64,000 bases of DNA, from positions 896,313-960,312 of the forward strand of contig NZ_JARKMS010000001.1 in the NCBI RefSeq assembly GCF_029350945.1. The letters are read 5' to 3'. The notes under the pieces were generated by a model. The model had not been told where the DNA came from and searched no databases. It saw only the letters and a list, made by a program, of their open reading frames with translations. Positions 55,323 through 61,321 of the stretch are shown here, piece by piece. Position numbers and translations under genes: made by a program. Origin of the DNA: Maribacter huludaoensis (GTDB lineage Bacteria > Bacteroidota > Bacteroidia > Flavobacteriales > Flavobacteriaceae). The number at the start of each line of letters is the position of its first letter. Positions within the stretch are counted from its first letter, which is position 1.

Positions 55323-56003
55323 CTATTCAATTTTATATAATTTGGGTTCTGTAATTCCTTTCTTAATGTAGCCTTCTTTGTTCATTTCAAAATGCATTTC
55401 AGACATTCCATTTAAATATTCTTCTATCGGTTCAAGTCCGATTGATTTTCTTTTTTTGTTTACTTCTGAGCTGTCTTTCAAATTTCTCGGGAATGCTTGT
55501 CCTGTCTCCATATTGTAGTCCACTTGAGTTCCATACACTTGTTGTTTCCCAATATTAAGCATTACTCGGTCAACTAATAAACCATAATTGCTAGGTTTTG
55601 CATTTCCTTTGTCAACTTCGATTTTCATTTTTTCCAATACTTCTTTTTGGAAATCAGGATTGTGGTCAGAATGTTGAATCATTAGCCAAAAGTTTTGTGA
55701 GCCTTCTTTTCCAGCCAAGTCAAACCCTACAAATCCATATTGCTTAAAAATTTGTTTTAATCTCATTTCGTGAGTAGTAAAAACACTATCCTTGTAAGAA
55801 TTCCATTGCATATCAGTCATTTTTTTATATTCTCCCTGTGGAATATATGCGGCGATTTGGTCAATCTCAGCCATTTTTTTTAGTTCATTCGCTAATTCCT
55901 GATTGAACTCTAATTTTTCTTTTATTTCTCTTTTTTCAGATGTTTTTTCTTTACACCCAAAAAGTAATAATCCAACAATTAAAATTCCTATTATTTTTTT
56001 CAT
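55323..56003 (-). CDS. DUF6624-like lipoprotein
   Basis: A 226-residue lipoprotein (lipobox LLLFGC, Cys17; then KEKTSEKR). The soluble domain has the DUF6624 pattern: LKKMAEIDQIA, KQYGFVGFDLAGKEGSQNFWL, then IQHSDHNPDFQKEVLEKM, LLVDRVMLN and QQVYGTQVDYN. Function unknown. It precedes attC-like copy 2 in the same orientation, so together they have a cassette layout. Confidence 0.75.
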   Translation of the reverse strand: MKKIIGILIVGLLLFGCKEKTSEKREIKEKLEFNQELANELKKMAEIDQIAAYIPQGEYKKMTDMQWNSYKDSVFTTHEMRLKQIFKQYGFVGFDLAGKEGSQNFWLMIQHSDHNPDFQKEVLEKMKIEVDKGNAKPSNYGLLVDRVMLNIGKQQVYGTQVDYNMETGQAFPRNLKDSSEVNKKRKSIGLEPIEEYLNGMSEMHFEMNKEGYIKKGITEPKLYKIE

Positions 56004-56247
56004 TTACATTTGTTCAGCTTGCAGGTAACTATGGTGCATTTGTACAATTACACATATTCGCAAATATTAAAATATATATGTAATAGTTTCAGCTAAAGTG
56101 CTAGAGGGAGTATACTTTGCTTGCTAATGCAATATAAAGAAGTTTTCGGTATATTTTCTTATGGCTTTCCGTAAAACTGTCAGAAAAATAAATGGGTTGC
56201 CTACTATGGGGCGGGGAGGTTTATAATTGAGATTAGAACTCCTAAGA
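56004..56247. other. Gap before the GC-rich repeat array
   Basis: AT-rich DNA without ORF or clear promoter. A degenerate GC-rich stretch at about 56207-56221 (tggggcggggaggtt) may be the remains of a repeat half-site. Confidence 0.4.
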
Positions 56248-56281
56248 ACCCACCCCTTTGGTCCCCTCCTAAGAGGGGAGG
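56248..56281 (+). repeat. GC-rich repeat half-site A, unpaired
   Basis: acccacccctttggt followed by a hairpin cccctc / gaggggagg. It is the first A half of the array, with no good B half 43 bp before it. Confidence 0.85.
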
Positions 56282-56384
56282 TTTTTGTCTTTGTTTTGGG
56301 TTTGTTGGTTATTGGGGAGTTATGTTTTCAAAAGATAACCACCACTTTTTTGTCTAAAAAGTGTAATAAAAGTCACAAACTATT

Positions 56385-56489
56385 CCCCTCCTCGGAGGGG
56401 CTAGGGGTGGGTCCTTACGGGTTAACATATTCCGTGAAATCTAAAGTACCCGATTACCCACCCCATTGGTCCCCTCCCTAGAGGGGAGG
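56385..56489 (+). repeat. REPIN-like element 1 (B half, 43-bp spacer, A half)
   Basis: B (56385-56412) is a cccctc-ctcg-gagggg hairpin followed by ctaggggtgggt. A (56456-56489) is acccacccc followed by a second cccctc / gagggg hairpin. The two 9-base arms (ggggtgggt, acccacccc) are complementary across an exact 43-bp spacer. Confidence 0.9.
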
Positions 56490-56594
56490 TTTTCGTCTTT
56501 GTTTTGGGGTTTGTTGATTGTTGGGGAGCTACGTTTTCAAAAAGGTTACCACTACTTTTTTATCTAAAATGTATAATAATAGTCACCAACTATT

Positions 56595-56699
56595 CCCCTC
56601 CTCGGAGGGGCTAGGGGTGGGTTCTACCGGGTTAGCATGTTCCATATAATCTACAGCACCCGATTACCCACCCCTTTGGTCCCCTCCCAAGAGGGGAGG
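56595..56699 (+). repeat. REPIN-like element 2 (B half, 43-bp spacer, A half)
   Basis: Same structure as element 1, B 56595-56622 and A 56666-56699, spacer again 43 bp and mostly conserved (gggttagcatgttcc, acccgatt). Elements 1 and 2 and the DNA between them repeat with a period of about 208-210 bp, as in a tandem duplication. Confidence 0.9.
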
Positions 56700-56802
56700 T
56701 TTTCGTCTTTGTTTTGGGGTTTGTTGATTGTTGGGGAGCTACGTTTTCAAAAAGGTTACTACCATTTTTTATCTAAAAAGTGAATAATAGTTAAAAACTA
56801 TT

Positions 56803-57240
56803 CCCCTCCACGGAGGGGCTAGGGGTGGGTTCTTCCTTGTTCCAATTCTTCAATATACTCTTTAATTTCTCCCAAAACGGTAGATAGATTATTCTTCACA
56901 TCACTATCTGAAAACCTAATCATGTTTACTCCTAAAGATGCTAAACGAGCTTGCCGTTTCTTATCTTTTTCTTCATGTCCTTCTTTAAAGTGGATACTGC
57001 CATCTACTTCTATGGCAAGTTGAAGATCTTTACAATAAAAGTCTACTATATACTGGTCTATAGGTATTTGCCTGCTAAATTTGTAACCCAATTTTTTACC
57101 CTTGATTTCTCGCCATAGGGCAATTTCACCTAAGGTCATATTGTTCCTTAGCTTTTTAGCCAGTTCTACTAAATATGGGTGGTATGGTATTATTTTTCTC
57201 ATGATAGCACCCACCCCTTAGTCCCCTCCCAAGAGGGGAG
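56803..57240 (-). mobile_element. REPIN-like element 3 carrying the DUF559 gene
   Basis: B half at 56803-56830 and A half at 57209-57240 have the same arms as elements 1, 2 and 4, but the 43-bp spacer is replaced by a complete DUF559 gene read toward B. The B half supplies the last three codons (Thr-His-Pro) and the TAG stop of the gene. The A half ends 6 bp before its ATG. It is a candidate autonomous member of the repeat family. Confidence 0.7.
56819..57202 (-). CDS. DUF559 (Vsr-like) endonuclease-domain protein in the repeat element
   Basis: A 127-residue DUF559 protein of the very-short-patch-repair/restriction-endonuclease-like fold: TLGEIALWREIKGKKLGYKF (with Glu26), RQIPIDQYIVDFYC (Asp54) and LAIEVDGSIHF (Glu65, Asp67), the spaced acidic residues of a PD-(D/E)XK site. 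The last residues, EQGRTHP, are read from the B half-site and the stop is the CTAG of that repeat. The start at 57202 is preferred; a GTG at 57214 within the A half is in frame. No partner methylase lies nearby. A role in spreading or resolving the repeats is inferred from their linkage. Confidence 0.85.
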   Translation of the reverse strand: MRKIIPYHPYLVELAKKLRNNMTLGEIALWREIKGKKLGYKFSRQIPIDQYIVDFYCKDLQLAIEVDGSIHFKEGHEEKDKKRQARLASLGVNMIRFSDSDVKNNLSTVLGEIKEYIEELEQGRTHP

Positions 57241-57333
57241 AATTGCGTTTTTGATGGTAAAGTTAGCGTTGGTTGAAAATTCTATTGTCATGTAAATCAT
57301 TTGCTGAAAGTTAAATTACGGTCTCAATTTTTT

Positions 57334-57361
57334 CCCCTCCATAGAGGGGCTAGGTGTGGGT
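57334..57361 (+). repeat. GC-rich repeat half-site B, unpaired
   Basis: cccctccatagagggg followed by ctaggtgtgggt, a slightly diverged B half, ending 3 bp before the stop of the serine hydrolase gene (57365). No A half follows at 43 bp. Confidence 0.85.
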
Positions 57362-57364
57362 ATT

Positions 57365-59125
57365 TTACTCCACCTTGATACCGTTCATTTCCTGTCCGTT
57401 TTGAAATAGGGTCAAACTTTCTGTATTTCCGTTTTCGTCTTTTATGAACTGAATTTGTGCGGCAACTTCTTTTAAGTAAAAAGTATCTTTCGATTTGGCG
57501 AAAATATTGAACGATGGCTGCCCCGTTGCCTGTGCTTTTAATTGTTTACCATCTTTGGTAATCGTAATTTTAAAAGTGGGCATTAATTCGTAGACGCCTA
57601 GGTAACTTTCCAGTAGTGCTTCTGGTACTTCAAACTCTTTAGTGAAGTTACTGGTATCAACACCTAATTTTTTAAGCATATCTATCGCATTTATATTTCC
57701 AGGATTCATTTCTACCGTTTTGGTATAGTTTTCAATAGCACCATTATTATCACCTGATTTCATTAACGCTTCGGCATAACTATCATATACATTGGCAGAA
57801 TTTGGATACGCGTCTACATTTAACTTAAAGACTTGAATAGCTTCACTGGTTTTGTTAGACCTTAATAATTTATATCCCGCTTGGTTCATCTCATTTTCAT
57901 TGACATCAAAATCTTGATTGTCTTTATTTTTCTCATAAAAGGCTACTCCTGCATCAATACCTTCTATCTCTATAACTTCTAAAACTTTAGATGCCAAGGA
58001 AGCTTTTGGGAGGTCATAGCTCTTATTGTTTATAATACCGAGAATAGCTTGCGTAATTTGACCTAAGGGAGCGCCGCCTGTATTATTTAAAAGCACGATC
58101 AATGATCGGTCCGATGGCGCTCTGGAAATTTGTGTGTTAAATCCGTTAATTCCGCCACCATGGCTAATTATGGCAATACTATCTGTTGTATTTCCAAGGG
58201 CTTCATTACCGGTCATCCATCCGTAGGCATAGTGAAAACTGCCAAATGCAGGTATGTATGGTTTAAAATACATATCCATATATTTTTGAGGTAACAATTT
58301 GTTGGTATATAGCGCTTGATCCCACAGATATAAATCTTCTACGGTAGAATAGAGAGATCCTGCCGCATACGGAATGGACATATCTAGGTAAGGAGCATTG
58401 ATGAATTCGCTCCCATTTTTTTCATAGCCTGTAGCTCTATTTTTAAGGATGTTGGAGTGATGGTCAAATCCGGAATCTTTCATTCCTAGTGGAGAAAATA
58501 TATGTTCCGTTAGCATTTTTTCATACGTTTTGCCGGATAGTTTTTCAACGAGCAAACCCAAAAGAAAGTACCCCGAATTGCTATAATTGAATCTTTCCCC
58601 AGGGGTAAACTCCAATTCCATATCCTGAAACTTTTTAGTGAACTCTTCTGGCGAATATGGGTCGCGACTATCTTCTTCAAAAAACTTAGGAAATGAGGTG
58701 TAGTTGGGTATACCGGCGGTATGGGTCAATAAATGGTGGGTGGTAATCTGGTCTCCGGTAGTTTTTGGATATGCTGGTAAGTATGTAGTTATGGGAGCTT
58801 GAAGATCTAACTTTCCATCCGCTGCCAATTGAAGAATAAGCATGGCGGTAAATTGCTTAGTGATCGATCCTAAACGATGTTTGGTGTTGGGACTGTTAGG
58901 GATATCCCACTCCATATTCGCCATACCATAACCCTTTTTAAGAATAACCTCACCATCTTTGGCAACTAGGGCAGAACCATTGAATTTGCCATATGAGAGA
59001 TATTGATCTAGGAGTGCATCTATTTCTTCTGATTTTGATTGCCCGATCGCTGAGGTACTTATAAAAAGCACAACAGATAGACAAGTAAGTAACGTATTGC
59101 TAATACTGCGATGTAATGATTTCAT
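57365..59125 (-). CDS. Class C beta-lactamase-fold serine hydrolase with C-terminal TPR region
   Basis: A 586-residue secreted protein (signal about 1-29, AIGQS). It has the serine-hydrolase motifs: Ser87-x-x-Lys90 in GSITKQF, Tyr181-Ser-Asn183 in FNYSNSGYF, and HGGGINGF in place of KTG. A region of TPR-like helices follows (about 380-500, SGDNNGAIENYTKTVEMN), and a C-terminal beta domain. Such enzymes are often peptidases or esterases; antibiotic resistance is not implied. It runs with the amidohydrolase gene 38 bp upstream. Confidence 0.9.
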   Translation of the reverse strand: MKSLHRSISNTLLTCLSVVLFISTSAIGQSKSEEIDALLDQYLSYGKFNGSALVAKDGEVILKKGYGMANMEWDIPNSPNTKHRLGSITKQFTAMLILQLAADGKLDLQAPITTYLPAYPKTTGDQITTHHLLTHTAGIPNYTSFPKFFEEDSRDPYSPEEFTKKFQDMELEFTPGERFNYSNSGYFLLGLLVEKLSGKTYEKMLTEHIFSPLGMKDSGFDHHSNILKNRATGYEKNGSEFINAPYLDMSIPYAAGSLYSTVEDLYLWDQALYTNKLLPQKYMDMYFKPYIPAFGSFHYAYGWMTGNEALGNTTDSIAIISHGGGINGFNTQISRAPSDRSLIVLLNNTGGAPLGQITQAILGIINNKSYDLPKASLASKVLEVIEIEGIDAGVAFYEKNKDNQDFDVNENEMNQAGYKLLRSNKTSEAIQVFKLNVDAYPNSANVYDSYAEALMKSGDNNGAIENYTKTVEMNPGNINAIDMLKKLGVDTSNFTKEFEVPEALLESYLGVYELMPTFKITITKDGKQLKAQATGQPSFNIFAKSKDTFYLKEVAAQIQFIKDENGNTESLTLFQNGQEMNGIKVE

Positions 59126-59163
59126 AATTTGTTTTTTTGATTGATTGAATTCTAAAAGGTTAT

Positions 59164-60438
59164 TTATTTTTCATTCTTATAAACTGTACCGTTTTTCATC
59201 ACGAATTTTACGTGTTCCAAAGTGGAGATATCTTCAATTGGATTTGTGTCTACAGCAATAATATCTGCGAGCATACCTTCTTTTAATTCACCACGATCCG
59301 TGAGCCCTAGCATTTCTGCACTATTGGTAGTAGCGGTTTTGATGGCTTCTTTAGTACTCATACCACAATCTATTAATGCCGCAAATTCAATGGCGTTTTT
59401 TCCATGGGGAATAATAGGCGTGTCCGTCCCAAAAGCAATTTTGACATCTGCTTTTATAGCTTTTGTAATGTTTTGTTTGGCAATGGGCATTACATATTCT
59501 GCCTTACCGGCCATAACGGGATCCATTTTATCTATCATGGGTTCTATTATAGTGGCCAGCCCCCTGGTAGGTACTAGATAAACACCATTTTCTTTCATTA
59601 GTTGAATACCTTCATCATCTATAATAGACCCATGTTCAATAGAGTACACGCCAGCCTTTATGGCCTCTTTAATACCTTCTGTACCATGTGCGTGGGCGGC
59701 AACTTTAATATGGTGCCTAGCAGCTTCGTCAACAATGGTTTTCATTTCCTCATTGCTTAGTTGTTGGGCGCCAATGGCATCTTCCATAGAGAGCACACCT
59801 GCGGTGGCGTGCATTTTTATGAATTTGGCACCATGCTTAATTTGATATCTTACCGCTTCTATGGCATCATACTTACCATTGATCACTCCGTCATTGGGAC
59901 CTACGGTAACCAATCCTTCCGCCAGTCCTAAAGAAATATCCCCGTGTCCGCCGCTAATGGTGATCATATGTCCCGATGGAATAATTCGTGGTGCAGCTAT
60001 GGTACCTTGTTCAGAAGCCTCTGAAACGGCAACATCTATTAATTCTGGAGTAATATGTAATTGCCCTATACTTCTTATGGTGGTAAAGCCTGCCATCAGT
60101 GTTTTTTCAGCATTTGTAACAGCCCTTATGGTACCTTGACTGGCACTTTCCTTATATACATAGTCCCAACTACCTTTAAATTCCCCATCTAAATGCACGT
60201 GCATGTCCATAAGCCCGGGTAACAATATTTTACCCGTTAAGTCAATTGTTTCCAAACCTTCAGGCAATGCCTTTGGATTAATAGATTTGATACTTCCGTT
60301 TTCAATGAGCAGGTTGGCAGGTGAAATTAACTTACCGGTTCTAACATCTAAAAAAGAAGCTGCTTTTATGAGTTTTGATTGAGCTAAAACGGATGATGTA
60401 GTTGCTAAAAGGATAAGAAGGGTTAAAACTTTTTTCAT
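59164..60438 (-). CDS. Secreted amidohydrolase (imidazolonepropionase-like)
   Basis: A 424-residue protein with signal peptide (about 1-19, VLAQ) and an amidohydrolase TIM barrel: LLPGLMDMHVHLDG (HxH metal ligands), carbamylated-Lys region KFIKMHATAG, HHIKVAAHAHG, SIEHGSII and FGTDTPIIPHG with the Asp ligand. It is close to imidazolonepropionase-like or dipeptidase enzymes; being exported argues for a peptide or xenobiotic substrate. It shares an operon with the serine hydrolase, so both may work on peptides. Confidence 0.9.
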   Translation of the reverse strand: MKKVLTLLILLATTSSVLAQSKLIKAASFLDVRTGKLISPANLLIENGSIKSINPKALPEGLETIDLTGKILLPGLMDMHVHLDGEFKGSWDYVYKESASQGTIRAVTNAEKTLMAGFTTIRSIGQLHITPELIDVAVSEASEQGTIAAPRIIPSGHMITISGGHGDISLGLAEGLVTVGPNDGVINGKYDAIEAVRYQIKHGAKFIKMHATAGVLSMEDAIGAQQLSNEEMKTIVDEAARHHIKVAAHAHGTEGIKEAIKAGVYSIEHGSIIDDEGIQLMKENGVYLVPTRGLATIIEPMIDKMDPVMAGKAEYVMPIAKQNITKAIKADVKIAFGTDTPIIPHGKNAIEFAALIDCGMSTKEAIKTATTNSAEMLGLTDRGELKEGMLADIIAVDTNPIEDISTLEHVKFVMKNGTVYKNEK

Positions 60439-60605
60439 TTGGTCAGATATTTATTTTACGGTTTTTTTAAAAAATCCTATGGTTATGGATTTACTATAAA
60501 GATAATATTATAAAGTGTTAGGGGAGAGTACTTTGCTTATTGAAAGATACAGAAGTTTGATTAATTAAAGGTTAATGGATGGAGATTAAACAGTCACAAA
60601 CTATT
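60439..60605. other. Gap left of REPIN-like element 4
   Basis: No gene. The 20 bp before the repeat (cagtcacaaactattcc) match the sequence before B in the array at 56.3-56.8 kb, so the conserved unit extends to the left of the hairpin. Confidence 0.5.
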
Positions 60606-60709
60606 CCCCTCCTCGGAGGGGCTAGGGGTGGGTTCTTGAAGGTTAGCATGTTCCATGAAATCTACAGTACCCGATTACCCACCCCTCAATCCCCTCCCAA
60701 GAAGGGAGG
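60606..60709 (+). repeat. REPIN-like element 4 (B half, 43-bp spacer, A half)
   Basis: B 60606-60633, A 60677-60709, spacer 43 bp, closely matching elements 1 and 2 at 56.4-56.7 kb in order, orientation and spacer sequence. The A hairpin has one change (gaaggg). It is separated from the array by the serine hydrolase and amidohydrolase genes. Confidence 0.9.
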
Positions 60710-60742
60710 TTTTTGTTTTGTCGCTATACTGATAGCTACTAA

Positions 60743-60785
60743 AGCAAAAAAAACCGCTGTAAGGAAAGTTCCTTACAACGGTTTA
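60743..60785 (-). terminator. Terminator of the PepSY gene
   Basis: Stem aaaccgctgtaagga / ttccttacaacggttt with a bulge (60751-60785). On the minus strand it is followed by a T-run. Confidence 0.85.
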
Positions 60786-60808
60786 GGTTTGAATTAGTCG
60801 AGTTTATA

Positions 60809-61321
60809 CTAAACGAATAGCAGTATAATGGTCAACACCATACCTGCCAAAGAAAAATACAGTCCTTTTTTAAAAACTGAAGTTTTGGGTAAAAACATCC
60901 AAAATGATGAAACCACGAAAAACAGTAACGATAGCCCAAAGAAAATATTCAAGAAATAAACAGGGCTATTGGTCGTGGCTTTATGTAAGTGCTCCATCTT
61001 ATCTAAGATAAATGGAAGTTCCATCTTTTTTATAATTGCCATACCTGTAACTTTATTGTATTGCCCTTGCTTAAAATAGACGACGTCACCTTCTGTTTTT
61101 TGGGGCTTTACGCCGCCTTTAATACGTAATGCTCCACCAAGTTCTGCAGCTTTTAAATTCGGTTTTAACTGGCGTTCCACTATTTTTTCACTTTTAAGAA
61201 AATCGGTATTTCTATAGATCATGATAATTCCGCTAATAGCATACATAGCCATGATACCGGCTAAAAAGAAACCTAAATAACGGTGAATAATTCTCATGCG
61301 TAAACTTGTGGTCATTTTCAT
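60809..61321 (-). CDS. PepSY-domain membrane protein
   Basis: A 170-residue protein with N-terminal helix (HRYLGFFLAGIMAMYAISGIIMIY, after a RIIHRYLG start), a small periplasmic PepSY-like segment, and two C-terminal helices (about 112-132 and 140-168). This is the HRYxG...SG pattern of PepSY-TM proteins, which are often linked to metal or siderophore reduction. Monocistronic, with terminator. Confidence 0.82.
   Translation of the reverse strand: MKMTTSLRMRIIHRYLGFFLAGIMAMYAISGIIMIYRNTDFLKSEKIVERQLKPNLKAAELGGALRIKGGVKPQKTEGDVVYFKQGQYNKVTGMAIIKKMELPFILDKMEHLHKATTNSPVYFLNIFFGLSLLFFVVSSFWMFLPKTSVFKKGLYFSLAGMVLTIILLFV

Follow-up and report, generated by a model that had tools for sequence, protein, structure and literature searches.

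A DUF559 nuclease gene between inverted palindromic repeats in Maribacter huludaoensis: a candidate REP-like element with homing-like relatives

In the account of repetitive extragenic palindromes (REPs) given in the available part of PMC8266576, two REPs in inverse orientation together with an enzyme make up a REPtron; the spread of REPs is described there as poorly understood, and an HUH enzyme has been proposed for them. Here we analysed a 64,000-nucleotide stretch of the Maribacter huludaoensis genome (the window; contig NZ_JARKMS010000001.1, positions 896,313 to 960,312), in which a DUF559 nuclease gene lies between two inverted REP-like units. The element resembles REPs, bacterial interspersed mosaic elements (BIMEs) and REPtrons in having a hairpin with a short foot, two inverted units, a nuclease gene beside or between them, and short elements without the gene elsewhere. 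It differs from them in its enzyme, which is HUH Y1 in the REPtron (TnpA-REP, RAYT) and is predicted to be Vsr/EDxHD-like here, in its G-rich feet (CTAGGGGTGGG or AAGGGGTGGG) where REPs have a GTAG tetranucleotide, and in that its relatives include in-frame copies inside genes. With no HUH enzyme and no GTAG, it is not a REPtron. We propose that it is a REP-like palindromic element which carries a nuclease and whose spread resembles homing, and we put the probability of this reading at about 0.55.

Residence in frame is a likeness to the Rickettsia palindromic elements (RPEs), palindromes in frame in protein-coding genes as described in the available part of PMC3733652, the title of which also names CGTC-tagged repeats. 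The DUF559 element differs from RPEs in that its insert can carry a nuclease. We know of no nuclease encoded within an RPE. The homing endonuclease I-Bth0305I is similar in fold and profile, and relatives of the window element occupy recurrent sites in conserved genes and have empty alleles; what can be seen of PMC3943268 describes extended DNA-binding regions and a group I intron association for I-Bth0305I, whereas DUF559 is one small domain and no splicing module was found. The fold is shared with Vsr and with VsrA of Caulobacter, which contains a DUF559 domain; for VsrA, the available part of PMC12907096 hypothesises mismatch repair linked to a methylase and mentions no palindromic element. 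The DUF559 element would work like a cross of REPtrons, in-frame Rickettsia palindromes and homing genes.

The DUF559 gene and its hairpin halves

The gene lies on the minus strand at 56819-57202, encodes 127 amino acids, and fills the spacer position between two inverted halves, each a hairpin plus a foot. Read along the minus strand, the order is hairpin CCCCTCTTGGGAGGGG, a foot ending GGGGTGGGT, 6 nt, the ATG at 57202, the 127 codons of the gene, and hairpin CCCCTCCGTGGAGGGG. An earlier, sequence-only reading of the window had claimed that the B half encodes the last three codons and the stop and that the A half ends 6 nt before the ATG. This is how the sequence reads: the 3' end of the gene, ACC CAC CCC TAG, is the B foot, and the A foot stops 6 nt ahead of the start codon. 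By direct reading, B halves start at 56385, 56595, 56803 and 60606, and A feet are positioned at 56456, 56666, 57209 and 60677. Flank similarity reaches about 10-15 nt past the outer hairpins as judged by eye, and this copy of the element is intergenic.

The same reading had described three elements with halves 43 bp apart and a fourth in which a DUF559 gene replaces the spacer, and both descriptions were borne out. The pattern TAGGGGTGGGT-N(30-60)-ACCCACCCC matched three times in the window, with a spacer of 43 nt each time, and in none of 100 shuffles, and the product of the gene in the fourth element matched PF04480 (DUF559) with an E-value of 4.9e-30 (104.1 bits against a curated cut-off of 20.6). 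When up to 3 mismatches were allowed, five B halves and three A halves were found in the window, the shuffles giving an expectation of 0 for each. The short elements are nuclease-less relatives of the DUF559 element. Two of the three, folded as single-stranded DNA, each formed one long imperfect hairpin (z -5.0 and -3.3). Elements 1 and 2 are not independent insertions, as the 210-nt unit in which they lie (56325-56534 and 56535-56744, 90% identical) is duplicated in tandem. The cluster also includes a solitary A half (56248-56281) and a degenerate B half (57334-57360). A search of the whole 4.24-Mb genome that tolerated up to 3 mismatches gave six B halves (five in the cluster) and three A halves (all in the cluster). 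With the looser motif GAGGGGN{1,6}AGGGGTGGG there were 11 copies, 8 of them in the 4.4-kb cluster, 1 elsewhere on contig C7 and 2 on C10. The repeats are mostly local in this genome and were partly made by tandem duplication.

The predicted fold of the gene product matches I-Bth0305I and Vsr, the I-Bth0305I profile also matches, and the conserved acidic and histidine residues of the EDxHD/Vsr group are present. On this modelling, DUF559 is a small Vsr/EDxHD-like (PD-(D/E)XK-type) nuclease and not an HUH enzyme like RAYT. A strict catalytic-residue pattern matched 80 of the 90 DUF559 domains read; most of the other 10 look like variants of the pattern, and some are altered at expected residues (L117 is without the usual Glu and L073 without the usual His). 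In 17 hand-picked DUF559 pairs, two of them with saturated synonymous divergence (dS), nonsynonymous divergence (dN) was far below dS, a comparison that shows purifying selection on the nuclease. PF04480 matches occur in 143 of 299 Flavobacteriaceae genomes (112 being of the full-length type) and in 222 of 395 Bacteroidota genomes, the latter count including weak Vsr-like matches. The sole other PF04480 match in the window's genome is partial and Vsr-like, and lies in a second Vsr-like gene (L002, G000:C7:181038-181166) in which only the C-terminal part of the profile is matched.

Other identities were looked for in the same region. An Rfam scan of 55900-61000 at E ≤1 gave two matches, both under the gathering score and taken as chance, and no intron family was found around the DUF559 copy. 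The GTAG tetranucleotide before the palindrome was not found in the window feet, the CGTC tag was not seen in the window repeats, and no PF01797 (Y1) match was obtained in the genome at E ≤0.001. Because the hairpins flank the gene on both sides with inverted feet and also occur inside coding frames, the view of them as plain terminators was set aside on layout. A defence-system label for the gene was set aside too, the PADLOC matches being mixed and weak to moderate (mREase_II 5.5e-8, HEase 4e-4).

Association of repeats and nuclease across genomes

In order to see the repeats and the gene in other genomes, we searched the 299 Flavobacteriaceae genomes with two related motifs. The first, the looser motif above, was present in 16 genomes and the second, CCCCCTTCGGGGGCTAGGGGG at up to 2 mismatches, in 36, so that 50 carried either. 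A full DUF559 match (E <1e-9) was found in 14/16 first-motif, 30/36 second-motif and 42/50 either-motif genomes, as against 70/249 with neither (odds ratio 13, p 1.6e-13 for either motif), and the comparison shows an association of repeat and nuclease. A backward-read control pattern gave no genome for the second motif and one copy in each of two genomes for the first. After removal of 5 genomes, chosen by eye, whose only copies flank DUF559, the proportions were 37/45 and 75/254. By eye, a first-motif copy lay within about 100 bp of DUF559 in 9 of the 16 first-motif genomes.

The sequence-only reading had named repeats that are abundant where DUF559 is absent as a case that would count against it. 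This case was not seen, all seven genomes with at least 8 second-motif copies carrying DUF559, with up to 32-34 copies per genome. Copies number 1-4 in each of the eight repeat carriers that lack a full DUF559, and at least 4 of these 8 assemblies are less than 90% complete. A rise of copy number with the presence of DUF559, which it had proposed to look for, was not significant among repeat carriers (p 0.26).

In Maribacter, arrays of A and B halves accompany the DUF559 gene, with up to 27 pattern matches per 12-kb stretch, a count in which one place may stand as A on one strand and as B on the other. In short elements of the first motif the spacer measured 42-44 or 85-88 nt, with one of 44 nt in another genus; these values come from the first ten loci for each length and are not independent, some being tandem copies and elements being listed on both strands. 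The two spacer clusters are close to four and eight helical turns. The inverted pairs of the second motif were less regular (52, 53, 87 and 96 nt apart in the four pairs read).

Inverted flanks were also seen further afield. We read 41 further loci from Flavobacteriaceae, Zixibacteria, Cloacimonadales, Chloroflexota, Nitrospirales, Omnitrophota and Clostridia, and many have hairpin-foot flanks of locally differing sequence. Complementarity of upstream and downstream flanks was scored for 109 DUF559 genes: the 90 best Flavobacteriaceae PF04480 matches by E-value, the window gene, and 18 loci (L034-L052 minus L052, which has a short flank; 22 close relatives, L012-L033, were left out). A score of at least 14 was reached by 32/109 genes and by 37/4360 random placements. 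Outside the Flavobacteriaceae set it was reached by 7 of the 18 loci, with different repeats. Among free-standing DUF559 genes the figure was 23/64, as against 4/229 for other open reading frames (ORFs) of the same loci.

In-frame copies, empty sites and trees

Of the 90 DUF559 genes read, 40 sit in open frames of at least 340 amino acids, at recurrent sites. As assigned by short motifs, their hosts are LeuRS (17), HemD (9, with the nuclease on the N-terminal side), MetH (8), RecG (4), IleRS (1) and one unassigned protein; Pfam, run on one example per host, confirmed LeuRS, MetH, RecG, a class I synthetase and HemD. At the borders of the in-frame copies the repeats encode peptides, PLAPSEGGG and LPSGEGPGG among them, and conserved ORFs of the relatives (LeuRS, RecG, MetH, IleRS-like) thus hold palindromes in frame, as with RPEs. 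A LeuRS-type query (E ≤1e-10) returned 434 long proteins with the domain; judging from their Pfam domains, the 120 listed among these resemble LeuRS or MetH. For five copies from other phyla, Pfam gave DNA methylases, an M50 peptidase and an aldolase-II protein as hosts; the DNA methylase cases are in two Chloroflexota metagenome-assembled genomes and one from Syntrophaceae (L040, L045, L047).

In LeuRS, DUF559 occupies about 105 of the 131-201 inserted residues, and the insert is an open frame throughout. Inteins are likewise in-frame nuclease insertions in conserved enzymes with a patchy distribution; they differ in that the LeuRS insert, nearly filled by DUF559, has little room for a splicing domain, and Pfam detected no intein domain in ten host proteins at E ≤1e-5. 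No splicing module came up in these scans of host proteins or in the intron search around the window copy, and it therefore seems that the nuclease stays in the host protein as an additional domain. One MetH frame (G215, L114 and L055) holds two DUF559 domains at different sites, which are sisters in the tree. In G144 (L262), half elements lie near the N-termini of his genes, as GVPPLGARG and TPPSGAGR, in proteins which we take to be HisB-like and HisH-like.

The sequence-only reading had also suggested a search for empty sites, and both empty and nuclease-less alleles exist, some of them between close relatives. A search found LeuRS in 290 of the 299 genomes. Thirty LeuRS loci from the family-wide search comprised 3 with DUF559, 13 empty and 14 longer by other residues; in Maribacter (35/36 genomes matched), 29 readable loci of 30 comprised 5, 14 and 10, respectively. 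The classes rest on length, two loci are common to both sets, and some of the longer alleles may be plain length variation. Presence is therefore patchy, and occupied and empty alleles stand at one site in Maribacter LeuRS, as for a homing gene; the window's own genome has an empty LeuRS. Among the longer alleles are some with unrelated palindrome peptides and no nuclease, and several families of palindromes may have this site as a hot spot: we saw VIASETKQS-like, CHAEPVEAS and TVTERSRS peptides there (L181, L183, L188, L175; L236, L243). The LeuRS of G314 can be read as holding a nuclease-less remnant, and a complete nuclease-less element lies in frame in a G125 protein that, from its sequence, is presumably IleRS-like.

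On a tree built from 92 domains, labels for insertion site require 7 changes, as against 36.6 when shuffled, so that recurrent sites have nuclease lineages of their own. MetH inserts form one clade (100/97), RecG inserts one (98/69), and 15 of the 17 LeuRS inserts one (96/83). One LeuRS insert, L113 of G144, falls with the MetH inserts (92/85), and this suggests that it jumped from one host gene to another. Among close relatives, G313 carries DUF559 where G305 and G320 carry another palindrome at the same site, with 82-97% identity over 500 bases on each side. The inserts of G321 and G304 are 93% identical. Yet in the downstream flank G321 shares more with the empty G328 (90.8%) than with G304 (83.8%), the two comparisons being about equal upstream, and this is an indirect sign of transfer. 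For the G321/G304 pair, dS is 0.34 in the insert and 0.90 in the host.

At the window's own locus, the allelic evidence is limited to replacement and absence in relatives. The neighbouring beta-lactamase-family gene was matched in 14 of 36 Maribacter genomes (E ≤1e-100). After it, G306 and G326 have another DUF559 gene (42% identical) with different hairpins, and in G306 about 0.5 kb replaces about 1 kb of the window, similarity returning at 56328, shortly before the solitary A half is reached. The site is without an element in G319. In G331 it holds short elements, and the 1.5 kb viewed show no DUF559; in G322 a DUF559 gene begins about 1.2 kb past the neighbour. The features of the window are collected in Table 1.

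Table 1. Features of the DUF559 element and its surroundings, in window coordinates
Feature	Position	Strand	Basis
DUF559 (PF04480) nuclease gene	56819..57202	-	profile match E 4.9e-30; predicted fold
A half 5' of the gene: hairpin CCCCTCTTGGGAGGGG and foot ending GGGGTGGGT	57209..57240	-	sequence; folding with 4 extra bases
B half 3' of the gene: hairpin CCCCTCCACGGAGGGG and foot, overlapping the gene end	56803..56829	+	sequence; pattern search
Short element 1 (B - 43 nt - A), without gene	56385..56489		pattern search
Short element 2 (B - 43 nt - A), tandem copy of element 1	56595..56699		pattern search; self-comparison
Short element 3 (B - 43 nt - A), about 3.4 kb distant	60606..60709		pattern search
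Solitary A half, within the stretch (56328 downward) again similar to relative G306	56248..56281	+	pattern search; synteny
Degenerate B half (2 mismatches) adjoining the beta-lactamase-family gene	57334..57360	+	pattern search
Two tandem copies of the 210-nt unit bearing elements 1 and 2	56325..56744		self-comparison
Beta-lactamase-family gene, synteny anchor; G306 protein 97% identical, followed there by a different DUF559 cassette	57365..59125	-	profile and relatives

How the element may spread

From these comparisons we infer that the element is mobile. In the homing-like reading, two inverted REP-like units, each a GC-rich hairpin with a G-rich foot, would flank the DUF559 gene as one mobile element. 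The nuclease would cut DNA that is without the element, or would cut at related palindromes. The cassette would then be copied in by repair, with a sister chromosome or an incoming one as template, and would spread in the manner of a homing endonuclease gene. Miniature elements would arise by deletion or by incomplete copying. Copies inside genes would persist where they are in frame and the site is tolerant, as may be the case in LeuRS, where the short stretch that receives the insert is variable and borders the editing domain.

Several observations weigh against this proposal. Markedly lower synonymous divergence of the insert is seen in only one of four LeuRS pairs; in the other three the insert difference is also lower than that of the host, but not clearly or less clearly so, and one has a higher insert dN. 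A chimeric contig may be involved in the case of G321, the assembly of which is 68% complete. Insert and host distances in LeuRS correlate weakly but positively (rho 0.30, n=17), and part of the pattern may therefore be vertical. Mapped on the LeuRS host tree, presence takes 10 changes, yet no more than 2 are required by well-supported branches. Resolution in this tree is poor (10 of 43 inner branches starred); three genomes appear twice among its 47 rows, so that the 20 insert rows stand for 17 genomes. On our reading, the cassette in LeuRS stands in for about 6-8 codons with no clean junction, and no target duplication is visible at that site. The 127-residue protein has no evident DNA-binding part beyond the nuclease fold, unlike I-Bth0305I as described in the available part of PMC3943268. 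Moreover, 65 of the 109 DUF559 genes have a flank score below 12; therefore, many either lie outside such elements or have decayed repeats, and a visible inverted pair is far from universal.

The sequence-only reading had drawn an analogy with REPINs (REP doublets forming hairpins) and their RAYT transposase. Taken as a mechanism, DUF559 would act on single-stranded hairpin-foot units, for example at the replication fork, excise or copy them, and so move its own gene and the short elements by transposition. Inverted units around the gene and short spacers, as in the BIMEs and REPtrons of PMC8266576 (available part), would fit this, as would the regular first-motif spacers, the dispersed second-motif copies in genomes with DUF559, and the lack of a visible target duplication. 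The analogy stands as regards the inverted flanks, the co-occurrence, and the nuclease-less elements away from the gene. It fails as regards the enzyme, since a Vsr/EDxHD-like fold would be that of a hydrolytic nuclease, for which a covalent intermediate is not expected, and it sits poorly with mostly local repeats partly made by tandem duplication and with the less regular second-motif pairs. Nuclease lineages tied to insertion sites, empty alleles and in-frame sites in essential genes resemble homing at least as much as they resemble RAYT-driven spread. We consider a RAYT-like mechanism unlikely; homing and RAYT-like action could hold for different lineages.

It could also be argued that another agent, or replication slippage, makes the palindromes, and that DUF559 is caught between them or moved by recombination. 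The LeuRS site does bear unrelated palindromes without nuclease, and tandem duplication accounts for part of the window cluster. Y1 (PF01797) genes also associate with the motifs, less strongly than DUF559 does (35/50 vs 81/249), and DUF559 and Y1 genes co-occur (68/112 vs 48/187), observations that count against the homing-like reading as well. In genomes with no Y1 match, however, the DUF559 association persists (12/15 motif genomes vs 32/168 others), other ORFs of the same loci are not so flanked, and the pairing recurs with different repeats outside Flavobacteriaceae. Hitchhiking of this kind thus appears quite improbable. That DUF559 is a host repair or defence nuclease of Vsr type, with regulatory hairpins and functional fusions for in-frame copies, is very improbable given the patchy alleles in one genus, the alternation with unrelated palindromes at one site and hosts as unlike as LeuRS, MetH, RecG and HemD, even though the nuclease is under purifying selection and Caulobacter VsrA (CCNA_02930), which contains DUF559, is functionally linked to a methylase in what is available of PMC12907096.

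We found no account of DUF559 within palindromic repeats in the open-access literature, a scope beyond which lie subscription papers and outside preprints. It would be tentative, at slightly less than even odds, to recognise a separate class of bacterial mobile element here, with a Vsr/EDxHD nuclease between inverted REP-like units, nuclease-less miniatures, a range of several phyla, and recurrent in-frame sites in essential genes without splicing. The homing-like reading would add a second, unrelated nuclease type to those tied to REP-like and in-frame palindromic repeats, and the DUF559 element may be the missing mobility agent for the in-frame ones. That a single LeuRS site in one genus naturally has occupied, empty and miniature alleles makes the question of spread directly testable. 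The homing-like reading would also give a role to PF04480, a widespread and unexplained family. Essential enzymes apparently tolerate the inserted nuclease and, if the separate class is real, a host enzyme carries its own parasite's nuclease as a domain.
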